Shown here piece after piece: positions 1,986-15,584 of a DNA stretch of 17,623 nt (within the stretch, counting starts at the first letter, position 1; every line of letters starts with the position of its first letter). The notes beneath the pieces were generated by a model. That model was given only the letters and a program-made list of their open reading frames with translations. It did no database searches and had not been told where the DNA came from. The stretch covers positions 1-17,623 of the forward strand of contig JALQUQ010000013.1 in the NCBI GenBank assembly GCA_023263735.1, written 5' to 3'. The position numbers and the translations under genes were made by a program. The DNA comes from Paracoccaceae bacterium (GTDB lineage: Bacteria > Pseudomonadota > Alphaproteobacteria > Rhodobacterales > Rhodobacteraceae).

Positions 1986-3215
1986 TCAGGCCGACATCTC
2001 GGCACGATTCAGCGCACAGTGCCGCCACAGCTCGTCCATGGCATGCACCAACCCATCGATTTCCTTGGGATCATGCACCGGAGAGGGCGTAAACCGCAGC
2101 CGTTCGGTGCCGCGCGGGACCGTCGGGAAATTGATCGGCTGCACATAGACGCCGAATCGTTCCAGCAACATGTCGGACAGCATTTTGCAATGGATGGGGT
2201 CACCCACATGCACCGGCACAATATGCGACCCGTGATCGATGATCGGCAGGCCCATACCCTTGAGACGGGATTTCAAAATGCGGGCGTGCAACTGCTGCTT
2301 GTCGCGCAGCATCTGCCCCTCGGCCGTTTTCAGGAATTTGACACTGGCCGCAGCCCCCGCAGCAACGGCGGGCGGCAAAGAGGTCGTGAAAATGAAGCCC
2401 GGCGCATAGGACCGAACCGCATCGACCATCTTTGCACTTGCAGCAATATAGCCCCCGAAAACGCCAAAGGCTTTGCCCAAGGTGGCGTTGATGATGTCAA
2501 TCCGGTGCATCTGGCCATCGCGTTCGGCCACCCCTGCCCCGCGCGCGCCATACATGCCAACGGCATGGACTTCGTCGATATAGGTCAGCGCCCCGACCTC
2601 TTCGGCCAGATCGCAGATTTCGCGGATCGGGCCAAAATCGCCATCCATCGAATAGATCGATTCAAAGGCGATCATCTTGGGCGCCGCCGGATCATCGGCC
2701 GCGATCAATTCACGCAGATGCGCCACGTCGTTGTGGCGGAAAATCCGCTTGGGCCCATTGCCGCGCCGCACTCCTTCGATCATCGAGGCATGGTTCAACG
2801 CGTCGGAATAGATGATCAGCCCCGGGAAAATGGTGCGCAGGGTCGAAAGCGTGGCATCATTGGCGATATAGGCAGAGGAAAAGACCAAAGCGGCCTCTTT
2901 GCCATGCAGATCGGCCAGTTCCGCCTCAAGCCGCTTGTGATACACCGTGGTGCCCGAGATGTTGCGCGTGCCGCCCGACCCGGCCCCGGTCGAATCCAGC
3001 GCCTCGTGCATTGCCCCCAACACCACCGGGTGCTGGCCCATGCCCAGATAATCGTTGCCGCACCAAACGGTGATGTCTTTTTGCGACCCGTCCGGTTTGG
3101 TCCAGACGGCATGCGGAAACTGATCCTTGCGGCGTTCGATATTGATGAACGTGCGATAGCGCCCCTCGTCGTGCAGGCGTTGCAAGGCAGTGTCGAGGGC
3201 GGCTTCATAGTTCAT
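1986..3215 (-). CDS. hemA: 5-aminolevulinate synthase (ALAS)
   Basis: This 409-residue PLP enzyme condenses glycine and succinyl-CoA to 5-aminolevulinate, the first step of heme and bacteriochlorophyll synthesis by the Shemin pathway of alphaproteobacteria. It is nearly collinear with Rhodobacter capsulatus HemA. Visible landmarks are [14 protein letters not shown] (about 50-63), [14 protein letters not shown] (77-90), the PLP-stacking/Asp region [12 protein letters not shown] (212-223) and the Schiff-base lysine K248 in [13 protein letters not shown]. The C-terminus carries the conserved [14 protein letters not shown]. The ATG at 3213-3215 is chosen over one six codons upstream because GGAGA lies seven bases before it and [11 protein letters not shown] aligns with family N-termini. 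A near-consensus FNR-type box lies about 100 bp upstream. Codon use matches its neighbours. Confidence 0.97.
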
Positions 3216-3314
3216 CAGGCTTCTCCGTGGCACTTCGGCTGCGGTTTTCTAAAGGACCGCGAGGCCAAAAGATGTATCTGGCGGAACTCTTCTCATACCC
3301 TTGGACACGCGACC

Positions 3315-3381: not shown

Positions 3382-3807
3382 TCAGGGGTTCGGGCCGACT
3401 TCCAACACAACGACGCAAGGATCACCGCCGGATTTCGCCTTGTCACAGGCCTCCAGCACCTTGGCTCTGGCGTCTTCGGCGCTGGCCAGTTCGGCCATGG
3501 CGATGGCCGAGGCAACCGGCTGACCGTCACGAATGAAGCCGTCGGCCGGGGCGATGGCAATGGCGGCAAACCCGTTGTTCGAGGGCACGAACAGCGACAG
3601 CGCCTGTTCATTGGTCGCAACCAGGCGCAGGGTTTGCACCTCTTGCTCGTTCAGGAAATCGGGCAGCGTCAGCGTGATCTGCGACCCACCCAGAACCGTG
3701 GTTTCGGTCGCCAGTTCCGCCCGTGCCCGATCGGCCAGGCCAAAGCCCCCCGACACCACGGTCAGGGCCGAAATCAGGGCAACAACCCGGACGATTCCTT
3801 TATCCAT
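3382..3807 (-). CDS. Small secreted protein of unknown function, upstream of hemA
   Basis: A 141-residue protein starting at the ATG at 3805-3807, which has AGAGG six to seven bases upstream. Residues 1-30 look like a Sec signal peptide: a Lys near the start, a hydrophobic stretch (about 5-24) and a likely cleavage after ADRARA. The mature part has no domain I recognise. It contains ITLTLPDFLNEQEVQTLRLV, SLFVPSNNGFAAIAIAPADG and a C-terminal pair of cysteines (C121 and C131, the latter in GGDPCVVVLEVGP) that could form a disulfide in the periplasm. It sits 166 bp upstream of hemA on the same strand, and divergent from the chimeric ORF at 3963. The longer possible start at 3879 is rejected because it would bury the signal peptide. 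Function unknown. Confidence 0.75.
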   Translation of the reverse strand: MDKGIVRVVALISALTVVSGGFGLADRARAELATETTVLGGSQITLTLPDFLNEQEVQTLRLVATNEQALSLFVPSNNGFAAIAIAPADGFIRDGQPVASAIAMAELASAEDARAKVLEACDKAKSGGDPCVVVLEVGPNP

Positions 3808-3962
3808 TTGTGAACCTCTGGTTACAAAGCTTCTCGGCGCCCAGATAGCCCATGCCGGGGCCTCTGGACAGGGGGGCATCTCCTGTTACGTTCCACATTA
3901 GATCACAATCGAAAGAGTCGGCCAATTCTTGCTGACCTCTGTGCAAGACGGAGCATTCGCCC

Positions 3963-4775
3963 ATGAGCCTTGATGCTGTGCTGTCCCAAGTTGACAGCGA
4001 CCTCCCCCACGCGTTGGACCGCCTGATCGATCTTTTGCGGATTCCCTCGATCTCGACCGACCGCGCGTTCAAGGCCGACTGTGCCCGCGCCGCCGATTGG
4101 CTGGTCAAAGATCTGACATCGCTGGGCTTTACAGCCTCAAGCCGCCCAACCCCCGGTCATCCGATGGTGGTGGCCCATGGCGGCGAGGGGGGGCCGCATC
4201 TGCTGTTTTACGGCCATTACGATGTGCAACCGGTGGACCCGCTGACGCTGTGCGACGGTGTCGAAAAGCCCAAGGGCTTCCTGACCCACGGGCGCGTGGA
4301 CAACGAAATCTGGACCTGGGGCAATCTGGGCTATGTCGCGACCGGCGCGGATGGCGATTTTCTGGCCAGCACTCCGGCGGATGCGATTGTCGATCTGGTC
4401 TATGCGCTGGATGCGGCCTATCGCGCCAATGCGACCTTTGTCATGAATTCCAAAACCGCGGGTGCGGCGCGCAAGATGAAGGACGCCGATGGCCGCTTCC
4501 TTTGGTCGGATGGTCTGGCGGCGGGCGAGCCTGCGCGTCTGATGGGCTATCCGGTTCTGATTGCCGAAGATATGCCCGACATCGCCAACAATGCCTTTGC
4601 CGTGGCCTTTGGCGATTTTTCCTCGGCCTATACCATTGCGGAACGCCCCGATATGCGCGTTTTGCGTGACCCCTTCAGCGCCAAACCGCATGTGCTTTTC
4701 TATGCGTCCAAGCGTGTGGGCGGCGATGTGTCTGACTTTGCTGCGGTCAAACTGCTGAAGTTCGCAGTGTCGTAA
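3963..4775 (+). pseudogene. Chimeric ORF: N-terminus of M20 dipeptidase fused in frame to C-terminus of GTA major capsid protein (gp5)
   Basis: This 270-codon ORF is made of two unrelated pieces. Residues 1-96 are the N-terminus of an M20-family metallodipeptidase (LLRIPSISTD, ARAADWLVKDLTSLGFTA, LLFYGHYDVQPVDPL), with the first metal ligand H85 and the catalytic-type D87. The rest of that family (normally about 450-470 residues), including its remaining metal ligands and dimerisation domain, is missing. From about residue 98 the protein is the C-terminal half of the Rhodobacterales GTA major capsid protein, HK97 fold: DGVEKPKGFL, NLGYVATGADGDF, RANATFVMNSKT, MKDADGRFLWSD, EDMPDIANNAF, AFGDFSSAYTIAERPDMRVLRDPF and the terminal KRVGGDVSDFAAVKLLKF. 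Capsid proteins of GTAs are about 400 residues. The peptidase start keeps a GGAG nine bases upstream, so the fusion may be translated. It is unlikely to work either as a peptidase or as a capsid subunit. Confidence 0.9.
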
Positions 4776-4915: not shown

Positions 4916-5518
4916 ATGATGTTGACGGAACAGTCCGCCGTTTCCGGTGCGATCTTGCCGGTACAGGCGATGAAGGATCATCTGCGTCTGGGCACCGGCT
5001 TTGCCGATGATGGATTGCAGGATGCGTTGATCGAGGCGCATGTGCGGGCGGCGATGGCGGTGATCGAGGCGCGGACGGGCAAGTGCCTGTTGCAACGCCG
5101 GTTTTTGCTGCGATTGGCGGCGTGGAGAGACCACGGGGCCGGACAATCGCTGCCTTTGGCCCCGATTGTGGCGATCCATGGGGTGACTTTGGTGGATGCG
5201 ACGGGGGCGGAAACGCCGGTCGCCCCCGAGCGCTATCGGTTGGTGCCCGATGCGGCGCGCCCGGTCTTGGCGGGGCTGGGCGGGGGCTTGCCGCAGATCC
5301 CGGCGCTGGGTGAGGCGCGGGTGGAGTTCGATGCGGGTTTTGGTGCCGGATGGTCGGCGGTTCCGCCCGATCTGGCGCAGGCGGTGATGTTGCTTGCGGC
5401 CGAGTTTTATGAGCGGCGTCATGAGGGCGGCGAGCGGGTGCCGGGGCTGCCGATGACGGTGCAGGCGCTGATCGATCCGTGGCGGACGGTGCGGGTTTTG
5501 CGCGGGGTCAGCCTATGA
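4916..5518 (+). CDS. GTA head-tail connector / adaptor protein (RcGTA gp6-like)
   Basis: A 200-residue protein matching in size and place the RcGTA gp6 adaptor (Rcc01688; the phiE125 gp8-like head-tail connector family), which forms the ring below the portal. The N-terminal part is helical (KDHLRLGTGFADDGLQDALIEAHVRAA), as in gp6-type connectors that begin with a short helical 'LKxHLR' segment. The C-terminus has PPDLAQAVMLLAAEFYERRHE. It starts at the first of two adjacent ATGs with GGAG seven bases upstream, and its stop overlaps the next gene (ATGA). It follows the capsid remnant by 140 bp, as gp6 follows gp5 in intact clusters. Without a portal and a full capsid in this locus its normal partners are absent. 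Confidence 0.88.
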   Translation: MMLTEQSAVSGAILPVQAMKDHLRLGTGFADDGLQDALIEAHVRAAMAVIEARTGKCLLQRRFLLRLAAWRDHGAGQSLPLAPIVAIHGVTLVDATGAETPVAPERYRLVPDAARPVLAGLGGGLPQIPALGEARVEFDAGFGAGWSAVPPDLAQAVMLLAAEFYERRHEGGERVPGLPMTVQALIDPWRTVRVLRGVSL

Positions 5519-5853
5519 AACCGGTGCAATTGAGCCGCCGTCTGGTTCTGGAAGAGATGGCCGAAGGGTCGGATGGCGCGGGCGGGATCGTGCAAAGCTG
5601 GCAGGCGCTGGGCATGGTTTGGGCCGAGGTGACGGCGGGCGCGGGCCGGGACTTCGGCGCGGAAGAGGTGGTGCTGGCCCGCGTCGGCTATCGGATCACC
5701 GTGCGCGGGGCCGAAATTGGCACGCCCCGCAGGCCGCGGGCGGGGCAACGCTTTCGCGACGGGGCGCGGGTGTTTGCCATTCTGGCGGTCGCCGAGCGGG
5801 ACGCAGCGGCGCAGTATCTGACGTGCTTTTGCCGCGAGGAGGAGCCAAGATGA
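5515..5853 (+). CDS. GTA head-tail joining protein / stopper (RcGTA gp7-like)
   Basis: The 112-residue protein equals the RcGTA gp7 stopper (Rcc01689) in length and belongs to the phage head-tail adaptor family (SPP1 gp16-like). In intact particles it forms the ring that closes the head exit beneath the adaptor. Family-type features are LSRRLVLEEMAEGSDGAGG, WQALGMVWAEV and, near the end, FRDGARVFAILAVAERDA, the small beta-barrel expected for stoppers. The ATG overlaps the stop of gp6 by four bases (ATGA), so translation is probably coupled. It ends in another ATGA overlap with gp8. Nothing suggests damage. Confidence 0.88.
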   Translation: MKPVQLSRRLVLEEMAEGSDGAGGIVQSWQALGMVWAEVTAGAGRDFGAEEVVLARVGYRITVRGAEIGTPRRPRAGQRFRDGARVFAILAVAERDAAAQYLTCFCREEEPR

Positions 5854-6248
5854 GCTATTCCGGTGCTGCGGCCCTGCAATCGGCGCTTTTCGCGGCTCTT
5901 TCGGCGGCGCCCGCCTTGGCGGGGGTGTCGATCCTTGACGCCATTCCGGCGGGGGGCGGGGGCGGAACTTTTGTCTTGCTGGGGCCGGAAGAGGTGACGG
6001 ACGCCTCGGATAAATCGGGTCTGGGGGCAGATCATCGGGTGGTGATCAGCGTGATCAGCGATGCGCGCGGCTTTCTGGAGGCCAAAGAGATCGCCGCAGA
6101 TATTTCGGACGCTTTGGTCGATGCAACACCCCCGATCAGCCGGGGACGGATCGTGAGCATCGGGTTTGTCAAGGCGGTGGCCAAGCGGCTGAAGGATGGC
6201 GATGTGCGCCGGATCGATCTGACCTTTCGCGTCAGACTTGATCTGTAA
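5850..6248 (+). CDS. GTA tail terminator protein (RcGTA gp8-like, DUF3168)
   Basis: A 132-residue member of the DUF3168 family. RcGTA gp8 (Rcc01690) caps the head-proximal end of the tail tube and fixes tail length during assembly. The N-terminus SGAAALQSALFAALSAAPAL and the conserved core around DHRVVISVISDARGFLEAKEIA, ending in RIDLTFRVRLDL, are typical of this family. The ATG overlaps the gp7 stop (ATGA), with a GAGGAGGAG purine run just upstream as a strong Shine-Dalgarno. Full length with no frameshift. Confidence 0.88.
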   Translation: MSYSGAAALQSALFAALSAAPALAGVSILDAIPAGGGGGTFVLLGPEEVTDASDKSGLGADHRVVISVISDARGFLEAKEIAADISDALVDATPPISRGRIVSIGFVKAVAKRLKDGDVRRIDLTFRVRLDL

Positions 6249-6280
6249 ACATCTGAAAATCAATATTTCTGGAGAATGAC

Positions 6281-6694
6281 ATGGCTGTTCAGAATGGCAA
6301 GGATCTGCTGTTGAAGCTGGATCTGACCGGGGTTGGTCAATTTGAGACGGTGGCGGGGCTGCGGGCGACCCGGATCAGCTTTAACGCTGAAACGGTGGAT
6401 GTCACCAGTTTGGAAAGCGCGGGCGGCTGGCGCGAATTGCTGGCCGGGGCGGGCGTGAAATCGGCGTCGATTTCGGGGTCGGGGGTGTTTCGCGACGCCA
6501 ATACCGACGAACGGGCCCGCCAGATCTTCTTTGATGGGGAAATGCCGAACTGGCAGGTGATCATCCCCGATTTTGGCGTGGTGGAGGGGCGGTTTCAGAT
6601 CACCTCGATCGAATATGCGGGCAGCCATAATGGCGAGGCGACCTATGAGCTGTCGCTGGCGTCGGCGGGCGCGCTGACCTTTACGGCGCTGTGA
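6281..6694 (+). CDS. GTA major tail tube protein (RcGTA gp9-like)
   Basis: At 137 residues it matches RcGTA gp9 (Rcc01691), the subunit that stacks as hexamers to build the flexible tail tube; it belongs to the TP901-1-like major tail protein family. Characteristic segments are the start AVQNGKDLLLKLDLTG, then TRISFNAETVDVTSLESAGGWRELL, FRDANTDERARQIFFDGEMPNWQVIIPDFG and GEATYELSLASAGALTFTAL. A clear GGAG lies before the ATG, and the 32-bp gap before it is the longest between gp6 and gp15, fitting a gene that needs strong independent initiation for a high-copy product. The stop shares a base with the next start (TGATG). Confidence 0.92.
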   Translation: MAVQNGKDLLLKLDLTGVGQFETVAGLRATRISFNAETVDVTSLESAGGWRELLAGAGVKSASISGSGVFRDANTDERARQIFFDGEMPNWQVIIPDFGVVEGRFQITSIEYAGSHNGEATYELSLASAGALTFTAL

Positions 6695-7014
6695 TGGCGA
6701 ATCCTTGGGCCGGAGAGGTTGCGGTGACCCTGAACGGCAAACCGCATGTTGCCAAATTGACCTTGGGTGCCTTGGCCGAATTGGAGGAGGCTTTGGGCAG
6801 CCAATCCCTGTTTGATCTGGTGCAAAGGTTTGAAACCGGGGCGTTTTCGGCGCGCGATGTTTTGGCGCTTTTGCTGGCGGGGTTGCGGGGCGGGGGGTGG
6901 CAGGGGTCGATGGATGACCTGCGCCGCGTCGAGATCGGCGGCGGCCCGGTCGGGGCTGCACGGGCGGCGGCCGAAGTGTTGGCCCGCGCCTTTTCCATGC
7001 CCGAGCGACCGTGA
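6694..7014 (+). CDS. GTA gp10-like tail assembly chaperone family protein
   Basis: A 106-residue protein (MANPWAGEVAVTLNGKPHVA, then LTLGALAELEEALGSQSLF) of the GTA gp10 family, which resembles the tail assembly chaperones of siphophages. These bind the tape measure during tail assembly and are not found in the mature particle. It lies between the tail tube and tape measure genes, where lambda has G/GT. The start is taken at the ATG at 6694, which shares one base with the gp9 stop; a GTG directly before it (6691) would add one residue. No slippery heptamer was recognised at its 3' end, so a lambda-style frameshift product is not supported. Confidence 0.82.
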   Translation: MANPWAGEVAVTLNGKPHVAKLTLGALAELEEALGSQSLFDLVQRFETGAFSARDVLALLLAGLRGGGWQGSMDDLRRVEIGGGPVGAARAAAEVLARAFSMPERP

Positions 7015-7265
7015 TGGCGCCTGATCTGAAAGGGCTGGACTGGCCTGGCCTGATGCGGGTCGGGTTTCATGATCTGCGGTTGTCGCCGGCTGCGTTCTGG
7101 GCGCTGACGCCGTTGGAATTGAGCATCCTGTTGGGGGCCGAGGCCAAGGCCAAGCCCCTGACGCGCGCGCGGCTGGATGAATTGGCCGCGGCCTTTCCCG
7201 ATATCATAAAGGAGCGAAACGATGAGCCGGGTCGAGGATCTGCAGGAACAAACCAGCGCGCTTGA
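7014..7265 (+). CDS. Small phage tail assembly chaperone-like protein (RcGTA gp10.1 type)
   Basis: An 83-residue protein containing WPGLMRVGFHDLRLSPAAFW, ALTPLELSILLGAEA, LTRARLDELAAAFPD, the pattern of the small GTA/phage proteins (TIGR02216/Phage_TAC_6 type) between gp10 and the tape measure. They are thought to act as the second tail assembly chaperone. The ATG at 7014 shares a base with the gp10 stop. Relatives are, from memory, about 60-70 residues and end soon after FPD. Here the frame continues for about 20 more residues (KERNDEPGRGSAGTNQRA) and overlaps the start of gp11 by 44 bases, probably a lost ancestral stop. Confidence 0.75.
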   Translation: MAPDLKGLDWPGLMRVGFHDLRLSPAAFWALTPLELSILLGAEAKAKPLTRARLDELAAAFPDIIKERNDEPGRGSAGTNQRA

Positions 7266-7875
7266 AACCACTTTGGGTGCGTCGAGCGCGATGATTGCCG
7301 CCTTTTCGGGCGAGTTGGGGCGGATGCAACAAAGTCTGCTGTTCACGGGGCGAGAGGTGAATGCGCTGAGCACCTCGATCGGGGGTGGGTTGCGGCGGGC
7401 CTTTGATGGGCTGGTTTTTGACGGGATGAAACTTTCGGATGCGCTGCGCGGCGTGGCGCAATCGATGATCTCGGGCGTCTATAATGTGGCGATGCGGCCG
7501 GTTCAGGGGGCTTTGGGCGATTTCGTCGCGAATGGGCTGAATTCGGCCTTGGGCGGTATGTTGCCCTTTGCCCAAGGTGGGGCGTTTTCCCAAGGCCGGG
7601 TGATGCCCTTTGCCAAGGGGGGCGTTGTGACGGCCCCCACCCAGTTTCCCATGCGGGGGGCCACCGGGTTGATGGGCGAAGCCGGGCCCGAGGCGATCAT
7701 GCCGCTGACGCGTGGCGCCGATGGGCGGCTGGGGGTGCAGGCGGCGGGCGGGGGGCGCCCGGTGACGGTGGTGATGAACATCCAGACGCCGGATGTGCAG
7801 GGATTTCAACGCAGCCAAAGCCAGATCGCGGCCAATGCCGCGCGGGCAATGGCGCGTGGTCAGCGCAACAAGTGA
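7222..7875 (+). CDS. GTA tail tape measure protein (RcGTA gp11-like)
   Basis: A 217-residue protein, the same size as the unusually short tape measure of RcGTA (gp11, about 219 residues), which fits the short GTA tail. The N-terminal part (VEDLQEQTSALETTLGASSA, then SGELGRMQQSLLFTGREVNAL) is predicted helical. The C-terminal half has lambda-type tape-measure signatures: FDGMKLSDALRGVAQSMISG, repeated FAQGGAF/FAKGGVV glycine motifs and GLMGEAGPEAIMPLTRGADG. AAGGAG lies seven bases before the ATG. It overlaps the preceding ORF by 44 bases. In the particle it lies inside the tube and is released on DNA delivery. Confidence 0.9.
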   Translation: MSRVEDLQEQTSALETTLGASSAMIAAFSGELGRMQQSLLFTGREVNALSTSIGGGLRRAFDGLVFDGMKLSDALRGVAQSMISGVYNVAMRPVQGALGDFVANGLNSALGGMLPFAQGGAFSQGRVMPFAKGGVVTAPTQFPMRGATGLMGEAGPEAIMPLTRGADGRLGVQAAGGGRPVTVVMNIQTPDVQGFQRSQSQIAANAARAMARGQRNK

Positions 7876-7882
7876 GGCAGGC

Positions 7883-8515
7883 ATGGCATTTCACGACATC
7901 AGATTTCCCGCCAACCTGAGCTTTGGCTCGATCGGGGGGCCCGAGCGGCTGACCGAGGTGGTGACGCTGGCGAACGGCTTTGAAGAGCGCAACACGCCCT
8001 GGGCCCATTCGCGCCGACGCTATGAGGCGGGGGCGGGGCTGCGCACGCTGGATGAGCTGGAGGCGCTGATCGCGTTTTTCGAGGCGCGCAACGGGCGGAT
8101 GCACGGCTTTCGCTGGAAGGATTGGGCGGATTACAAATCTTGTGCGCCATCGCGACAACCCACGGCGCTGGATCAGACGATTGGCACGGGCGACGGGCAG
8201 ACGACGCGGTTTCAACTGGCCAAGACCTATCGATCCGGGCTGGAAACCTATCGCCGCACGATCACCAAGCCGGTTGCGGGCTCCGTGTTGGTGGCGGTGG
8301 CGCGTGACCCAAAGGTCGAAGGGCAGGAGTATTCGGTTGATCTGGCGGAGGGTGTCGTGACCTTTGTGGTGCCGCCCGACATTGGGGTGCTGGTTTCGGC
8401 GGGGTTCGAATTCGATGTGCCGGTGCGGTTTGACACGGATCGGATCGCCACCTCGGTCGCGTCGTTTCAGGCGGGTGAAGTGCCCGAAGTTCCCGTGATC
8501 GAGGTGCGCGTGTGA
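7883..8515 (+). CDS. GTA distal tail protein (RcGTA gp12-like, DUF2460)
   Basis: The 210-residue DUF2460 protein is equivalent to RcGTA gp12 (Rcc01695), the ring joining the tail tube to the baseplate. It has the family start MAFHDIRFPANLSFGSIGGP, then ANGFEERNTPWAHSRRRYEA, FFEARNGRMHGFRWKDWADYKSC (the mid-domain WxDxxD/FRW feature) and FEFDVPVRFDTDRIATSVAS at the end. The start is the ATG at 7883, eight bases past the gp11 stop; in-frame sequence upstream lies inside gp11 and is not used. The stop overlaps gp13 (TGATG). Confidence 0.9.
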   Translation: MAFHDIRFPANLSFGSIGGPERLTEVVTLANGFEERNTPWAHSRRRYEAGAGLRTLDELEALIAFFEARNGRMHGFRWKDWADYKSCAPSRQPTALDQTIGTGDGQTTRFQLAKTYRSGLETYRRTITKPVAGSVLVAVARDPKVEGQEYSVDLAEGVVTFVVPPDIGVLVSAGFEFDVPVRFDTDRIATSVASFQAGEVPEVPVIEVRV

Positions 8516-9369
8516 TGCAGGGCGCCTTGTTCAACCATTTGAAATCGGGATCAACCACGGTGTGCCGGGCTTGGTTGGTTCGGCGGGCGGATGCGGTGGT
8601 CTTTGGCTTTACCGACCATGATCAGGATCTGAGCTTTGACGGGGCGACGTTTCGGGCGCGATCTGGGTTGACGGCCAAGGCCCTGCAACTGGCAACGGGG
8701 CTTTCGGTGGACAACAGCGAAGCGGCGGGGGCGCTGTCGGATGATGCGCTGACCGAAGCGGATATTGCCGCCGGTCGGTATGATGCGGCCGAGGTGACCG
8801 TTTGGCTGGTGAACTGGGCCGATGTCTCTGAACGCTCTGTTCTGTTCCGCGGGAGTTTTGGCGAGATTTCGCGCAAGGGCGGGGCGTTTCGGGTGGAGCT
8901 GCGCGGTCTGGCGGAAAAGCTGAATGTGGTTCAGGGCCGCGCCTTTGTTCCCGATTGCGCGGCCCAATTGGGCGACCGGGCCTGTGGCGTTGATCTGAGC
9001 CTGCCGGGCCATCGGGTGGACACGACGGTGCAGGGGATTGTTTCGCTGCGCGAGATTGCCGTGCCCGATGATCCGACCCTGCCTGCGAACTGGTTCGCGG
9101 GTGGCAGGATACGGGTGCTTTCGGGGGCGGCGGCGGGGCTGTCGGTGACCATCGAGAGCGAGCGGGTTGACGGCGATCTGCGGCGGTTTCACCTGTGGCA
9201 CGCGCTGCCGGTGGGGGTGGCGGTTGGCGACGCGGTCACCCTTGAGGTGGGCTGCGATGGGTTGGCGCGAACCTGTCAGGTCAAATTCGGCAACTTTCTG
9301 AATTTTCGCGGCTTTCCGACAATTCCGGGGGAAAGCTGGTTGCGCGGCCCGGTGCGCGCGGATCGCTGA
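8515..9369 (+). CDS. GTA baseplate hub protein (RcGTA gp13-like, DUF2163)
   Basis: A 284-residue DUF2163 protein equivalent to RcGTA gp13 (Rcc01696), the hub below the distal tail ring. It shows FGFTDHDQDLSFDGATFRA near the start and the two conserved cysteine pairs C148/C157 (PDCAAQLGDRACGVDL) and C247/C254 (GCDGLARTCQVKFGN), followed by FLNFRGFPTIPGE. In the RcGTA structure the hub is reported to hold an iron-sulfur cluster, and these four cysteines are the expected ligands; all are present. The ATG at 8515 shares a base with the gp12 stop; a GTG one codon earlier is the alternative. Confidence 0.9.
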   Translation: MQGALFNHLKSGSTTVCRAWLVRRADAVVFGFTDHDQDLSFDGATFRARSGLTAKALQLATGLSVDNSEAAGALSDDALTEADIAAGRYDAAEVTVWLVNWADVSERSVLFRGSFGEISRKGGAFRVELRGLAEKLNVVQGRAFVPDCAAQLGDRACGVDLSLPGHRVDTTVQGIVSLREIAVPDDPTLPANWFAGGRIRVLSGAAAGLSVTIESERVDGDLRRFHLWHALPVGVAVGDAVTLEVGCDGLARTCQVKFGNFLNFRGFPTIPGESWLRGPVRADR

Positions 9370-9383
9370 AAAGGGCGAGGCTT

Positions 9384-9833
9384 ATGGAACAGCAGGATTT
9401 TGCGGCCCGCGTCGTTTTGGCGGCGCGGGGCTGGATCGGGACACCCTATGTGCATCAGGCGTCAATCCTTGGGCATGGGGCGGATTGTTTGGGCTTGGTG
9501 CGTGGGGTCTGGCGCGAATTGATCGGGCATGAGCCCGAGCCCTTGCCGGCCTATACGACCGACTGGTCGGAAGCCTCGGGGCGGGAGGTGCTGGCGCAGG
9601 CGGCGGGGCGGTGGCTGTGCCCGCGCCCCGATCCTGAGATCGCGCCCGGAGATGTCTTGTTGTTTCGCATCCGGTCGGGGGCGGTGGCCAAACATCTGGG
9701 CATTGTCAGCGAAACCGGGGCCTGCCCCCGGTTCATTCACGCCTATAGCGGCCATGGGGTGGTGGAAAGCCCGCTTTCAACGCCTTGGCGGGCAAAAATC
9801 GCCGGGGTTTTTCAGTTTCCGGCCAAGGGGTAA
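9384..9833 (+). CDS. GTA NlpC/P60-type peptidoglycan peptidase (RcGTA gp14-like)
   Basis: The 149-residue protein is a phage-type NlpC/P60 cysteine peptidase. In the particle it is part of the baseplate and is thought to cut cell-wall peptides during DNA entry. The catalytic cysteine is C35 in GADCLGLVRGVWREL. H104 in AKHLGIVS is the likely catalytic histidine, and RFIHAY (H119) follows. The aspartate-containing PEIAPGDVLLFR is typical of the fold. It has no signal peptide, as expected for a structural component. Spacing is 14 bases from gp13 and 3 bases to gp15. The catalytic residues are intact, which argues against long decay. Confidence 0.9.
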   Translation: MEQQDFAARVVLAARGWIGTPYVHQASILGHGADCLGLVRGVWRELIGHEPEPLPAYTTDWSEASGREVLAQAAGRWLCPRPDPEIAPGDVLLFRIRSGAVAKHLGIVSETGACPRFIHAYSGHGVVESPLSTPWRAKIAGVFQFPAKG

Positions 9834-9836
9834 ACA

Positions 9837-12800
9837 ATGGCGACGCTTCTTCTTTCGGCGGCTGGGGCTGCCATCGGGTCGGGCTTTGGCGGCACTGTTC
9901 TGGGGCTGTCGGGGGCGGTCATCGGCCGGGCCGTGGGGGCCACTTTGGGCCGGATCGTGGATCAGCGCATTTTGGGCGCGGGGGCCGAGCCGGTGGAAAC
10001 GGGCCGGTTGGACCGTATTCAGATCATGGGGGCCGGCAAGGGCGGTGCGGTGCCCGAGCTTTGGGGGCGGATGAAGATTGCGGGGCAGGTCATCTGGGCC
10101 TCGCCCTATACCGAGGTGCGACAGGAAACGGGGGGCGGCAAGGGGATGCCGCGCCCAAAGACGGTGGATTATTCCTATACCGTCAGTCTGGCGATTGCGC
10201 TGTGCGGGGGGGAGGTGACCTCGGTCGGGCGAATCTGGGCCGATGCCGAGGAATTGCCGGTCGGGACGTTGGACTATCGGCTGTATCCCGGGGATGAAAT
10301 GCAATTGCCCGATCCGGCCATCGAGGCGGATCTGGGGGCAGGGCAGGCCCCGGCCTATCGTGGAACGGCCTATGTGGTTTTTGAGCATCTGGACCTGTCG
10401 CGGTTTGGCAATCGGGTTCCGCAATTTGCCTTTGAGGTGACGCGCCGAGCCCCGCCCGAGGCGCGGGCGGATCATCCCGATCTGGCCGATTGCGTGCCGG
10501 GGGTGGCGCTGATTCCGGGAACGGGGGAATATGCGCTGGCAACCCAGAAGGTGCGGTTTCAAAAGGACTTTGCCACGGTTGAAACGGCAAATGCCCATAG
10601 TGGGGGGCCGGTTGCCGATTTCCCCTTGGCCTTGGGGCAATTGACGTCCGAGTTGCCACAGGCCCATGGGGTGTCGCTGGTGGTCAGTTGGTTTGGCACC
10701 GATCTGCGCTGTGGGGACTGCGCGATCCTGCCCAAGGTGGAACAGGCCAGCTTTGATGGGCTGGAGATGCCATGGCGCGCGGGCGGGATTGCCCGGGCCG
10801 CCGCGCAAGAGGTGCCGCGACTGGAGGGGCGTTCGGTTTATGGTGGAACCCCGGCCGATGCCTCTGTGGTGCAGGCGATTGCGGCGCTGACTGAGGCGGG
10901 CAAGGATGTGATGTTCTATCCCTTTGTTCTCATGGAGCAATTGCCGGGGAATGGTTTGCCCGACCCCTATCGGCCGGGGCAAGAGCAACCGTCGCTGCCG
11001 TGGCGCGGGCGGATCACCACGTCGGATGCCGTGGGGGGAACGGCGGCTGCGACGGCCGAGGTTGCGCGCTTTTTCGGGGCCGCACAGCCCGAGCATTTCG
11101 CGGTTGCCGAGGGCCAGATCACATATGCCGGGCCCGAGGATTGGGGCTATCGCCGCTTTATCCTGCATTATGCGCATTTGTGCGCGCTGGCGGGCGGGGT
11201 GGAGGCGTTTTGCATCGGTTCGGAATTGCGGGGGGTGACCCAGAGTCGCGGTGAAGGGGGCACCTATCCGGCGGTGCAGGCGCTGATTCAGTTGGCGGCC
11301 GATGTGCGGGGCATTTTGGGCCCATCGGTCAAGATCACCTATGCCGCCGATTGGTCGGAATATTTTGGCGATCACCGGGGCGGGGATGTTGTCTTTCACC
11401 TCGACCCGCTGTGGGCGGATGCGAATATCGATTTCATCGGCGTCGACAATTATCTGCCGCTGTCGGATTGGCGCGAAGGGGCCGATCATGCGGATGCGGG
11501 CTTTGGGTCGGTTCACAATCTGGACTATCTGAGCGCCAATGTCGCGGGCGGGGAATATTACGATTGGTATTATGACAGTGCTGAAGGCGAGGCCTATCAG
11601 CGTCGCCGCCCCATTGTGGATGAGGCCTTTGGCGAAGATTGGATCTATCGCCCCAAGGATTTTCTGAACTGGTGGTCGAACCCGCATTACAACCGCGTGG
11701 GCGGGGTGCGGGCCGGGCAGTCGTCGGATTGGGTGCCGCAAAGCAAGCCGATCCGGTTCACCGAATTTGGCTGTGCGGCACTGGACAAAGCAACGAATGA
11801 GCCGAACCGGTTTCTGGATCGACTGTCATCGGAATCGGGTTTGCCGCGGGCGTCGACCGGGGGGGTGGATGCCTTTTTGCAACTGCAATACTTCCGGGCG
11901 ATGAAGCGGCATTGGTCGAACCCGGTCAACAATCCGGTCTCGGTCGGTTATGGCGGGCCGATGGTTGCCTTTGACAAAAGCTATGCCTGGGCGTGGGATG
12001 CGCGGCCCTATCCGTATTTTCCGCAAAATGCCGAAGCCTGGAGTGATGCCGACAATTACCCGGCGGGGCATTGGCTGAACGGTCGGGCGACGCATGTGCC
12101 CTTGGATGCCTGTGTGACTGACATCTGTTTGGCGGCCGGGGGCGCGGCCCCGGTTGTCGATCGTTTGCAGGGGCTGACGGCGGGCTATCTGGTTGACCAG
12201 TCGGATACGGCCCGCGCGATCCTTCAGCCGCTGTCGATGGTGATGGGATTTGACGCCATCGAAGATGAGGGGCAGTTGCATTTCCAATCGCGGGGTGCCG
12301 CTGTTCGGGGCGTCATTGAGGCGGGTGAGGTCGTGCTGGGCGCAGAGGGCGCTGCGACCAAGGAACTGGTGCGGTTGCCGCATCATGAGGCGATTGCGCG
12401 CTGGCGCCTGGGCTTTGTCGAGGGGGAGGGGGTTCTGGAACCCTCGGCCATCGAACTTTCGGCCGGGCGTGGGGCGCAAGGTGGCGTGGCGCAGGCGGAT
12501 TACAATCTGCAATTGGGTGAAGCCGAGGCGCGGGCGGTTGCGCGCCGCTGGCTGTTGGAGGCGCAATTGGCGCAGGATCGTCTGACCCTGACGCTGCCGC
12601 CCAGTCGGTCGGATGTGACGGTGGGCATGGTGATCGATGTCGATGGGCTGCCCTATCGCATTGACCGGATGGAGCTGACCGACGCGCGTGAGATCGAGGC
12701 GGTTCGGGTTGATCTGGGGGTCTATGACGCGGACCGCGCGGTGCCCGCCCCGGTGCGCCGGTCGGCGCCGGAAAGCGCGGCCCCGGTTACGGTCCTTTGG

Positions 12801-13715
12801 GCCGATCTGCCACAGTTTCGCGCCGATCAGCCGCTGGGCCCGGTGGTGGCGGCGGTCGCACGGCCCTGGACTGGCACGGTCGCCGTCTGGAGCAGCGATC
12901 AAGACGCCGATTACGCGCCCAAACTGGCCATCGAGGCGCCCGCAGTGATGGGGACGACGCTGACAGAGTTGGCCCCGGGGCGGGCCGGTCTATGGGATCG
13001 GGGGGCGGGGTTGCGGATCAAACTGGTGAGTGGCCAGTTGGAAAGCGCCGCGGCGCTGTCGGTGTTGAACGGGCGAAATCTGTTGGCCATTGGGGATGGT
13101 TCGGCCAATCGGTGGGAGATTCTGAGCTTTCAATCCGCGACCTTGGTCGAGGCCGGAGTGTATGACATCAGGGATCGGTTGCGGGGATTGGCGGGAACCG
13201 ATCCCTTTGCCGAAACCGTCTGGCCCGAGGGGAGCCGGATCATCGTGCTGTCACCGGGGATGCCGGTCATGCCGCTCTCGATGGATCTGGCGGGATTGCC
13301 GCGCCATTACCGAACGGGTTTGGCCAATGCGGGCTATGCCGATGCGGATAGCGCGCATACGGTGCAGGCCTTTGATCTGAACCTGGCGCGCCCCTATCGG
13401 ATTTGCCACCTGCGCCATGATCTGGCCCCGAATGGCGATCTGAACCTGCGCTGGGTCAGGCGGGGGCGGATCGAGTCGGACAGTTGGCAGGGCGACGACG
13501 TGCCCTTGGGCGAACAGGTCGAACGGTATCTGCTGCGCTTTCGCACCGATGACCATCGGACCATTCGGCAGGAAACGGTGGCGGCCCCGGCCTATCATTA
13601 CCCGGCGACGCAGATTCTGGCCGATATCGGCAATGACTGCACCTATCTGGACATTGCGCAGGTGTCGCAAAGCTTTGGGCCGGGGCCGGCCTTGCGCTTT
13701 GATCTGCCGTTCTGA
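9837..13715 (+). CDS. GTA 'megatron' baseplate / host-specificity protein (RcGTA gp15-like)
   Basis: The 1292-residue protein matches RcGTA gp15 (Rcc01698, about 1300 residues), the central baseplate protein that contacts the recipient cell. The N-terminus is a Gly/Ala-rich hydrophobic segment (about 1-45) with GTVLGLSGAVIGRAVGATLG, followed by tail-hub-like sequence (PAYRGTAYVVFEHLDLSRFG at about 175, RVPQFAFEVT). A GTA TIM-barrel domain (PF13547 type) covers about 425-720, with GVEAFCIGSELRG, KITYAADWSEYFG, DFIGVDNYLPLSDWR and PIRFTEFGCAALD. A phage-tail_3-type domain follows, then a C-terminal region ending in FGPGPALRFDLPF. The frame is open throughout, which is notable for the longest gene of a locus that has lost its head module. 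It starts three bases after the gp14 stop with AAGGGG upstream. Confidence 0.93.
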   Translation: MATLLLSAAGAAIGSGFGGTVLGLSGAVIGRAVGATLGRIVDQRILGAGAEPVETGRLDRIQIMGAGKGGAVPELWGRMKIAGQVIWASPYTEVRQETGGGKGMPRPKTVDYSYTVSLAIALCGGEVTSVGRIWADAEELPVGTLDYRLYPGDEMQLPDPAIEADLGAGQAPAYRGTAYVVFEHLDLSRFGNRVPQFAFEVTRRAPPEARADHPDLADCVPGVALIPGTGEYALATQKVRFQKDFATVETANAHSGGPVADFPLALGQLTSELPQAHGVSLVVSWFGTDLRCGDCAILPKVEQASFDGLEMPWRAGGIARAAAQEVPRLEGRSVYGGTPADASVVQAIAALTEAGKDVMFYPFVLMEQLPGNGLPDPYRPGQEQPSLPWRGRITTSDAVGGTAAATAEVARFFGAAQPEHFAVAEGQITYAGPEDWGYRRFILHYAHLCALAGGVEAFCIGSELRGVTQSRGEGGTYPAVQALIQLAADVRGILGPSVKITYAADWSEYFGDHRGGDVVFHLDPLWADANIDFIGVDNYLPLSDWREGADHADAGFGSVHNLDYLSANVAGGEYYDWYYDSAEGEAYQRRRPIVDEAFGEDWIYRPKDFLNWWSNPHYNRVGGVRAGQSSDWVPQSKPIRFTEFGCAALDKATNEPNRFLDRLSSESGLPRASTGGVDAFLQLQYFRAMKRHWSNPVNNPVSVGYGGPMVAFDKSYAWAWDARPYPYFPQNAEAWSDADNYPAGHWLNGRATHVPLDACVTDICLAAGGAAPVVDRLQGLTAGYLVDQSDTARAILQPLSMVMGFDAIEDEGQLHFQSRGAAVRGVIEAGEVVLGAEGAATKELVRLPHHEAIARWRLGFVEGEGVLEPSAIELSAGRGAQGGVAQADYNLQLGEAEARAVARRWLLEAQLAQDRLTLTLPPSRSDVTVGMVIDVDGLPYRIDRMELTDAREIEAVRVDLGVYDADRAVPAPVRRSAPESAAPVTVLWADLPQFRADQPLGPVVAAVARPWTGTVAVWSSDQDADYAPKLAIEAPAVMGTTLTELAPGRAGLWDRGAGLRIKLVSGQLESAAALSVLNGRNLLAIGDGSANRWEILSFQSATLVEAGVYDIRDRLRGLAGTDPFAETVWPEGSRIIVLSPGMPVMPLSMDLAGLPRHYRTGLANAGYADADSAHTVQAFDLNLARPYRICHLRHDLAPNGDLNLRWVRRGRIESDSWQGDDVPLGEQVERYLLRFRTDDHRTIRQETVAAPAYHYPATQILADIGNDCTYLDIAQVSQSFGPGPALRFDLPF

Positions 13716-13771
13716 ATTTTGGGCTGTGCCGTTCGTGCCGGGTAAAATCTTGCGTCAGATGCGTTATCCGT

Positions 13772-13801
13772 TTGGACACGCCAGAGTATTAGCAGTAGAA
13801 T
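13772..13801 (+). promoter_or_regulatory. Possible sigma-70-type promoter for the HU-like gene
   Basis: TTGGAC at 13772-13777 and TAGAAT at 13796-13801 (five of six to TATAAT) are 18 bases apart, in the 148-bp gap between gp15 and the HU-like gene. This gap is visibly AT-richer than its surroundings. It would let the HU-like gene and tRNA be expressed independently of the GTA genes. The -35 match is poor, so this is tentative. Confidence 0.3.
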
Positions 13802-13863
13802 CGGAAACAATCACAGTGGCATCACGAAGCGCGGGATAAGCGCCGTGACAATGGAGCGGGCAG

Positions 13864-14292
13864 ATGAAAAAAACGACCAGAACTTCGGCCAAGAAACGCG
13901 TTTCGCCAGAGGTAACGGCGGAAACTGCTGCCGTTGTCGTTGAGGAACCGGCAGAGGCGGCCGAAGCGGCGACAGAGGCTGAGGGGGCCGAAGGTGCGTC
14001 CAAGACCGTGGCCGCCTTGAAACTGAAGGATCTGGTCGAAATGGTCGTCGCCTCGACCGGGGCCAAGAAGAAGAACGCCAAGGAAATCGTCGAAGCGACC
14101 CTGACCCAGTTGGGGGCGGCTTTGGCGGATGGAAAAGAGTTGAACCTGCCGGGCTTTGGCAAGGTTCGGGTGCAAAAGTCGGCGAATAAGGCCGATGGCC
14201 AATCGATGATGACGCTGAAAATGCGCAGTGCGAAACCGCAGCGCAAAAAAGATGCCGCAGAGCCACTTGCAGAAGCCGAGGAAGCGGTCTAA
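13864..14292 (+). CDS. HU/IHF-family DNA-binding protein with acidic Ala/Glu-rich N-terminal extension
   Basis: A 142-residue protein whose residues about 52-125 are an HU-type domain: LKLKDLVEMVVASTGAKKKN, AKEIVEATLTQLGAALADGK, ELNLPGFGKVRVQK and a Lys-rich end. HU proteins bend and compact DNA. Before the domain there is a short basic start (KKTTRTSAKKR) and about 35 residues rich in Ala and Glu; the C-terminus is again acidic (AAEPLAEAEEAV). Such tails lengthen the usual 90-residue HU by half and may tune DNA binding. It lies 148 bp after gp15 and only 12 bp before tRNA-Val, so the two may share a transcript. The exact paralogue (HU, IHF or a specialised relative) cannot be fixed. Confidence 0.85.
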   Translation: MKKTTRTSAKKRVSPEVTAETAAVVVEEPAEAAEAATEAEGAEGASKTVAALKLKDLVEMVVASTGAKKKNAKEIVEATLTQLGAALADGKELNLPGFGKVRVQKSANKADGQSMMTLKMRSAKPQRKKDAAEPLAEAEEAV

Positions 14293-14304
14293 GAGGCGGT
14301 CATC

Positions 14305-14379
14305 GGGCGATTAGCTCAGCGGTAGAGCGCTTCGTTCACATCGAAGATGTCAGCGGTTCAAATCCGTTATCGCCCACCA
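14305..14379 (+). tRNA. tRNA-Val (anticodon CAC), CCA encoded
   Basis: A cloverleaf of 75 bases. The acceptor stem GGGCGAT pairs perfectly with ATCGCCC. The D-arm contains TAGCTCAGCGGTAGAG. The anticodon arm is CTTCG-TTCACAT-CGAAG, giving anticodon CAC (reads the valine codon GUG). The T-arm is AGCGG-TTCAAAT-CCGTT. The discriminator A and CCA are encoded at 14376-14379. It begins 12 bases after the HU-like gene and is followed by an intrinsic terminator. Confidence 0.96.
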
Positions 14380-14428: not shown

Positions 14429-14564
14429 TTGCATTTGGGCGGTTGGGTTCCCGTGCGGGTACGACCGGCAAAAACCGCGCAGGGGCGGGGGGCGGCGCAA
14501 AGTTGGGTTGATTTTGGCCCAAGAATGCGGGCAAAGAGCGCAAGATCTAAGGAATGCGGAACCG

Positions 14565-15584
14565 ATGTCCGAACGCGCGGAAGTGACCCCCAAGGCAACA
14601 GAGGCTGTACGCACGGCGGCGCGGCTTTCCGTCGCCCCGATGATGGAATGGACCGACCGGCATTGCCGGTTTTTCCATCGGTTGATGACACGGCGGGCGA
14701 TGCTTTACACCGAGATGGTGACGGCTCCGGCTGTGGTGCATGGGCCAAAGCCGCGTCTGTTGGATTACAGCGATGCCGAGCATCCGGTTGCCCTGCAATT
14801 GGGGGGATCGGACCCGAAGGAACTGGCGCAAGCGGTGCGGATCGCCCGCGACTGGGGCTATGACGAGATCAACCTGAACGTTGGCTGCCCTTCGGATCGG
14901 GTGCAGTCGGGATGCTTTGGGGCGGTGTTGATGGAGCGCCCGGCGCTGGTCGCCGATTGCGTGGCGGCGATGCAGGATGTGTCGGACGTTCCGGTGACGG
15001 TGAAATGCCGGATCGGGGTGGATGAGCAGGTTCCAGAAAGCGTGCTTCCCGATTTCATCACGCGGGTTTCCGCGGCGGGGGTGCGCCATTTCGTGATTCA
15101 CGCGCGAAAGGCGTGGTTGCAGGGGCTGTCGCCCAAGGAAAACCGGGAAATTCCGCCGTTGAATTATGATCTGGTGGTTCAGATGAAACGGGATTTCCCC
15201 GATCTGACGATTGCGATCAATGGGGGGGTGACCACCTTGGCGCAGGTGCAGGATTTGCTGGCGCGGGGGCTGGATGGCGTGATGGTGGGCCGCGCGGCCT
15301 ATCATGATCCGGCGTCGGTGTTGATTGGGGCCGATGCGCTGTGGGGAGAGGATCACGCCCCCGATGCCTTTGCCGTGGCCGAGGCGATGCTGCCCTATAT
15401 CGAGGCCCATCTGCGCAACGGGGGGCGGTTGCACCAGATCACCCGGCACATGCTGGGTTTGTTTACCGGGCGACCGGGGGCGCGGACGTGGCGGCGGATC
15501 TTGTCAGAACGCGCCAACCAGCCCGGGGTCGGCCCCGAGCTGGTGGTGGAGGCGCTGGATCAGCTGCGGGCCGTGGCCGCCTGA
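14565..15584 (+). CDS. dusA: tRNA-dihydrouridine(20/20a) synthase DusA
   Basis: The 339-residue flavoenzyme reduces uridine in the D-loop of tRNAs to dihydrouridine, using FMN and NADPH. It has SVAPMMEWTDRHCRFFHRL near the N-terminus, NLNVGCPSDRVQSGCFGAVL with the catalytic cysteine C108, the DusA-diagnostic IHARKAWLQGLSPKENREIP (about 179-197), and the FMN-phosphate region INGGVTT...GVMVGRAAY (about 218-246). The helical tRNA-binding C-terminus is complete. The ATG at 14565 is preferred to in-frame ones upstream because AAGGA lies 11 bases before it and the upstream alternative lies inside the terminator. Its 3' end overlaps the convergent MFS gene by 25 bases. The tRNA just upstream is a possible substrate, but the neighbourhood may be chance. 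Confidence 0.95.
   Translation: MSERAEVTPKATEAVRTAARLSVAPMMEWTDRHCRFFHRLMTRRAMLYTEMVTAPAVVHGPKPRLLDYSDAEHPVALQLGGSDPKELAQAVRIARDWGYDEINLNVGCPSDRVQSGCFGAVLMERPALVADCVAAMQDVSDVPVTVKCRIGVDEQVPESVLPDFITRVSAAGVRHFVIHARKAWLQGLSPKENREIPPLNYDLVVQMKRDFPDLTIAINGGVTTLAQVQDLLARGLDGVMVGRAAYHDPASVLIGADALWGEDHAPDAFAVAEAMLPYIEAHLRNGGRLHQITRHMLGLFTGRPGARTWRRILSERANQPGVGPELVVEALDQLRAVAA

Follow-up and report, generated by a model that had tools for sequence, protein, structure and literature searches.

The open reading frame at positions 3963–4775 of the window, by which we mean the whole analysed stretch of 17,623 nucleotides from a Paracoccaceae bacterium, runs from the beginning of an M20 dipeptidase gene into the end of the gene for GTA gp5, the HK97-type major capsid protein, and the window is very probably a chimeric contig from a fragmented draft assembly (740 contigs, 85.8% complete; here G000). 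The start of the M20 gene and its usual upstream neighbours would have been joined into the gp5 gene of an ordinary GTA cluster, either through a chimeric read or fragment or because the assembly graph was followed wrongly at one point; the join was presumably made during library construction or assembly, and a gp5 read from another organism may have bridged it. The true genome most likely holds an intact M20 gene adjoining hemA and an intact gp5 gene within a complete GTA cluster. A chimeric contig would explain the single occurrence of the fusion, the intact parents, the presence of the gp5 front on another contig of the same draft (C104), the missing stretches on the seam side, and perhaps also the mosaic patch that follows the seam. 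Left in the databases, the hybrid would pass for a new capsid fusion. If it is an artefact, it is mostly a within-species chimeric contig, which checks of completeness and lineage probably leave unflagged; if it is real, it records the loss of a GTA, which would be of modest interest.

The frame, on the forward strand, opens with the ATG at 3963, ends with the stop codon at 4773–4775 and encodes 270 amino acids with no stop inside, as the earlier note had read it; a random join preserves strand and frame about one time in six, and the in-frame state is thus weak evidence. Its first 96 codons (3963–4250) encode residues 1–96 of P0121, a full-length M20 protein, and find their best same-genus M20 matches at 75–84% identity. 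Seam 1 lies in codon 97 (TGC, 4251–4253), where P0121 has W and P0002, a full-length gp5, has G: in the protein alignment the residue order is VDPLTL-W-D in P0121, VSG-D-G in P0002 and VDPLTL-C-D-G in the window. Both the breakpoint placed at 4251–4253 and the neighbouring Trp and Gly that had been predicted from relatives agree with these near-identical full-length proteins. To judge from the letters, the codon fits a junction of TG from TGG with C from GGC, and G4252 may be assigned to either parent, which would leave a one-base ambiguity and one base common to both sides. Since the two sides of the seam share a single base, it is not a simple repeat-induced misjoin, which counts somewhat against a chimeric contig; a misjoin at a shared k-mer was rejected for this seam. 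Beyond it lie a patch of about 120 bases that differs from P0002 and is possibly foreign (4254–4373), and then the C-terminal part of gp5 (4374–4775).

The first half of the frame resembles the N-terminus of M20 peptidases of the cytosolic non-specific dipeptidase type (NF006579; PDB 4g1p, DUG1, and 2zof), and the identities that the earlier note had assigned to both halves are borne out by profile matches and by the full-length proteins. Residues 2–97 match NCBIfam NF006579 (E 7e-41, under the family's whole-protein cut-off), and a search with residues 1–98 retrieved P0121, a 456-residue protein encoded on an ENA contig 7,075 bases long, which is identical to the window at 96 of 96 positions over residues 1–96, aligns to PDB 4g1p over residues 2–451, and carries PF01546 (peptidase) at 81–454 and PF07687 (dimerisation) at 198–356. 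Compared with such an enzyme, the window copy is without residues 97–456, that is, almost the entire peptidase domain and the whole of the dimerisation domain. Pfam finds no M20 domain in the whole frame or in codons 1–96, the 96-residue head by itself giving no match at E 0.001, so that the pair of domains expected of a dipeptidase, PF01546 and PF07687, is missing from it. Residues 99–456 were not found in the 740-contig draft: with the M20 protein of the genome G003 as query, the one match there is the 98-residue piece of the window. A PF01546 profile search of the draft brought up four further genes (frames of 399–480 amino acids); they go unmatched by the G003 query, were ruled out as this M20 and are taken to be paralogues.

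The second half, the C-terminal 173 codons, resembles GTA gp5 (Rcc01687; PDB 6tb9 and 6tba; TIGR01554, PF05065) and differs from it in lacking the first 225 residues. Residues 98–267 match positions 118–280 of the 280 in Pfam Phage_capsid (PF05065; E 7e-52), and positions 228–385 of the 385 in TIGR01554 are present; although both scores exceed the curated cut-offs, what they capture is the C-terminal portion of the HK97 capsid domain only. P0002 (398 amino acids, found on two ENA contigs, the longer of 4,214 bases, aligning to PDB 6tb9 over residues 13–398) matches the window without a difference in its last 133 residues (fusion residues 138–270) and is identical over residues 1–165 to C104, a contig of 5,410 bases in the same assembly as the window. 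We take C104 to carry an incomplete mltG-like gene, which may be followed by gp1, and after that gp2, gp3, gp4 and the start of gp5, in the same order as in G003; its final ~53 bases belong neither to gp5 nor to M20. The gp5 gene of the draft is thus split over two contigs, both pieces running into something other than gp5, namely the C104 tail and, in the window, M20. In a profile search, Phage_capsid positions 65–117 (approximately gp5 residues 166–224) were not found in the 740 contigs.

The hybrid therefore joins 96 residues of a 456-residue dipeptidase to the final 173 of the 398 capsid residues, and because both domains are incomplete, no functional enzyme or capsid subunit would be expected from it if it is translated. 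Two signs of a chimera can be set beside each other here. Intact versions of both parents occur in P0121 and P0002, identical to the window over 96 and 133 residues, respectively, and from this degree of identity probably belonging to the same species. The complementary part of a parent is found elsewhere in the assembly for gp5 (residues 1–165 on C104), whereas the remainder of M20 is not found there. The earlier note had named, as the mark of an assembly chimera, a sister assembly in which both genes are intact and flanked alike; this has its counterpart at the level of the proteins only. The window resembles the chimeric contigs of draft prokaryotic genomes (GUNC, PMC8201837) in that unrelated genes are joined inside a coding sequence, in one assembly only, and differs from them in that both of its main parts appear to come from one species; to lineage-based tools such a join would probably be invisible.

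The fusion has been seen once. In a search of ~5.8 billion proteins, with 8000 candidates scored, it is represented by a single member on a single contig, which is the window, and each of the other 119 of the 120 matches listed covers at most 66% of it. Forty-nine of the 61 genomes searched, its own included, gave a match; among the relatives, none of the matches listed spans both parts, and three overhang the seam, on G029:C51 (residues 3–120, 49% identity, in a 503-residue frame), G029:C20 (residues 20–107, 37%) and G020:C20 (residues 92–268, 76%, a capsid match). A scan of genome_contigs, from which the window's own genome is possibly excluded, gave 80 loci among the matches listed (at least 592 related stretches), all with the capsid part only, and the 30-base junction pattern had no exact match in viral_contigs. 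Among the titles listed in a search of the literature there was nothing on an M20–capsid fusion of this kind. A natural and selected hybrid, in which the M20 N-terminus became attached to a capsid domain, would agree with the open frame and the retained M20 start codon, and the earlier note had allowed for such a protein; we give it hardly any credence. A natural gene fusion should be met in more than one independent sequence, while this one has a single occurrence; its full-length parents exist elsewhere, and the front of the same gp5 sits on C104. Moreover, its head brings 96 of 456 M20 residues, of which the Pfam M20 domain in P0121 begins only at residue 81, and its tail is without Phage_capsid positions 1–117.

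Upstream of the frame, on the reverse strand, lie genes which we take to be the N-terminal part of ispG, cut by the contig end (1–542; 88% identity to G003C1 23142–24272), a RodZ-like helix-turn-helix protein (638–1867; 73% to G003C1), hemA for 5-aminolevulinate synthase (1986–3233; 90.6% to G003C1) and a small conserved, IalB-like protein (3382–3879). The rodZ-like gene and hemA hold the same position in all eight M20 loci compared, ispG stands beside them and M20 in all eight, and the small protein is 46–55% identical to the M20 neighbour in seven, the eighth (L134) having no match. Downstream, on the forward strand, the remainder of the GTA head–tail cluster (4916–13715) extends to a presumed gp15-type tail protein in the gene order of the relatives' clusters, with GTA_TIM and Rcc01698_C located within 9837–13715; the GTA gene numbers, too, are our assumption. 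Past the tail gene come an HU-like gene, tRNA-Val and then dus (14496–15584), which in the nine relatives searched lies on another contig in five and at least ~74 kb from gp5 in four; the intergenic stretch 13716–14379 may mark another rearrangement or seam.

M20 adjoins hemA in all eight M20 loci, and the GTA cluster is elsewhere, on another contig or more than 100 kb away, except in G024, from another genus of the family, where it directly adjoins the M20–hemA pair (L134; G024:C3:698500–718000). This arrangement would favour a relocation of the GTA cluster beside hemA–M20 in the lineage, followed by decay of M20 and of the cluster front, a reading that is nonetheless highly improbable: in G024 the cluster and M20 are convergent and separate, and in the draft the cluster front lies on C104 behind the mltG-like gene, as in G003, which indicates that the cluster was not moved as a unit and led us to reject the relocation.

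A real chromosomal rearrangement in the strain, in which an inversion or translocation cut into both M20 and gp5 and left two broken genes and an incidentally open frame, finds more to recommend it and is still improbable. The gene order is regular as far as the seam on either side, and where M20 and gp5 share a contig they stand on opposite strands in G007, G014 and G024 (on the same strand in G010), so that one inversion could yield the join in the former. End joining often leaves no or one shared base, and the one base common to both sides of the seam fits it. An inversion, however, predicts a reciprocal junction of the gp5 start with the M20 end; this product was not found, and C104 runs from gp5 into neither, which counts against an inversion. 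The M20 remainder was likewise not found in the draft, full-length copies identical to both parts exist, and the patch at 4254–4373 would require a second event. That a rearrangement confined to one strain put the GTA capsid half under the M20 start, disabled the GTA production of that cell line and led to an expressed but folding-defective hybrid is, if anything, slightly less probable.

The chimeric contig may in turn contain a second seam, at the far end of this patch. Counted from residue 97, the window and P0002 disagree at 16 positions, which all fall in residues 97–137 (15 of them in 101–137), and agree at every one of the 133 residues beyond; a search with residues 97–150 places P0005 and P0006 (85%) above P0002 (72%). 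At the DNA level, the 120-base piece 4253–4372 scores 101 bits against other genera and 81.5 bits against its own genus, the same genus supplies none of its top five labelled loci, and its closest DNA is the IMG/VR contig L313, at 89.8% over 108 bases; in all pieces of the window's gp5 from 4313 onward the own genus is ahead. Two pieces of the gp5 on C104 itself likewise score higher with another genus (5200 by 16.6 bits and 5230 by 4.0 bits), which makes this test of a foreign patch a weak one; the same preference recurs in C104 piece 4330, in several C104 pieces at 3820–3940, which is the edge of the DNA available for the labelled loci, and in a few window pieces past gp5. That the capsid half opens with ~120 bases that look unlike the gp5 of the species is no more than suggestive of a second seam. 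A natural allele exchange within gp5 could also be the source of the patch, and a repeat-induced misjoin is possible at seam 2, in the conserved stretch past residue 137.

A survey for other bad joins compared 34 of the 740 contigs of G000 (379,453 bases, the window and C104 included) with 1,814,189 bases of G003, whose genome totals ~3.1 Mb; the mapped genes sum to ~114 kb of G000, and 13 of the 34 contigs have none. As a control, 10 loci of 175,009 bases (~117 kb mapped), several of which are relatives' own GTA and M20 loci, were treated alike. C-terminal truncations in mid-contig number two in G000, M20 in the window and prs on C188, and none in the control, which does not demonstrate that bad joins are in excess in G000 and counts somewhat against the chimeric reading. 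N-terminal cases (16 in G000, one of them the window's gp5, and 6 in the controls) were excluded, being judged mostly start-codon artefacts, for the most part without inspection. At 13799–14572 of L200 (G000:C188), a diverged second prs continues for approximately 62 codons from its start and then gives way to DNA that we take to be insertion-sequence-like. An intact, different prs lies on C165, which weakens the C188 case as a bad join; C188 is possibly a contaminant.

Foreign tails at contig ends are not clearly commoner in G000 than in other drafts. Fifteen of its contig ends lie in mapped genes, of which that of L203 was dropped, its alignment starting at the start codon; by hand count, 3 of the remaining 14 carry a foreign tail, of 38, 56 and 126 bases. 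Among 100 contig ends examined as controls, 74 were evaluable and 8 had a tail of at least 25 bases, that of C104 among them. At the right ends of L190 and L138 (G000:C33 and C3), the genes stop 126 and 38 bases early, respectively, and are continued by sequence unlike the G003 gene. At 3161–3281 of L136 (G000:C1), the homology to one G003 gene breaks, and just before the break the match is with an antisense frame in the same part of G003, which suggests a frameshift.
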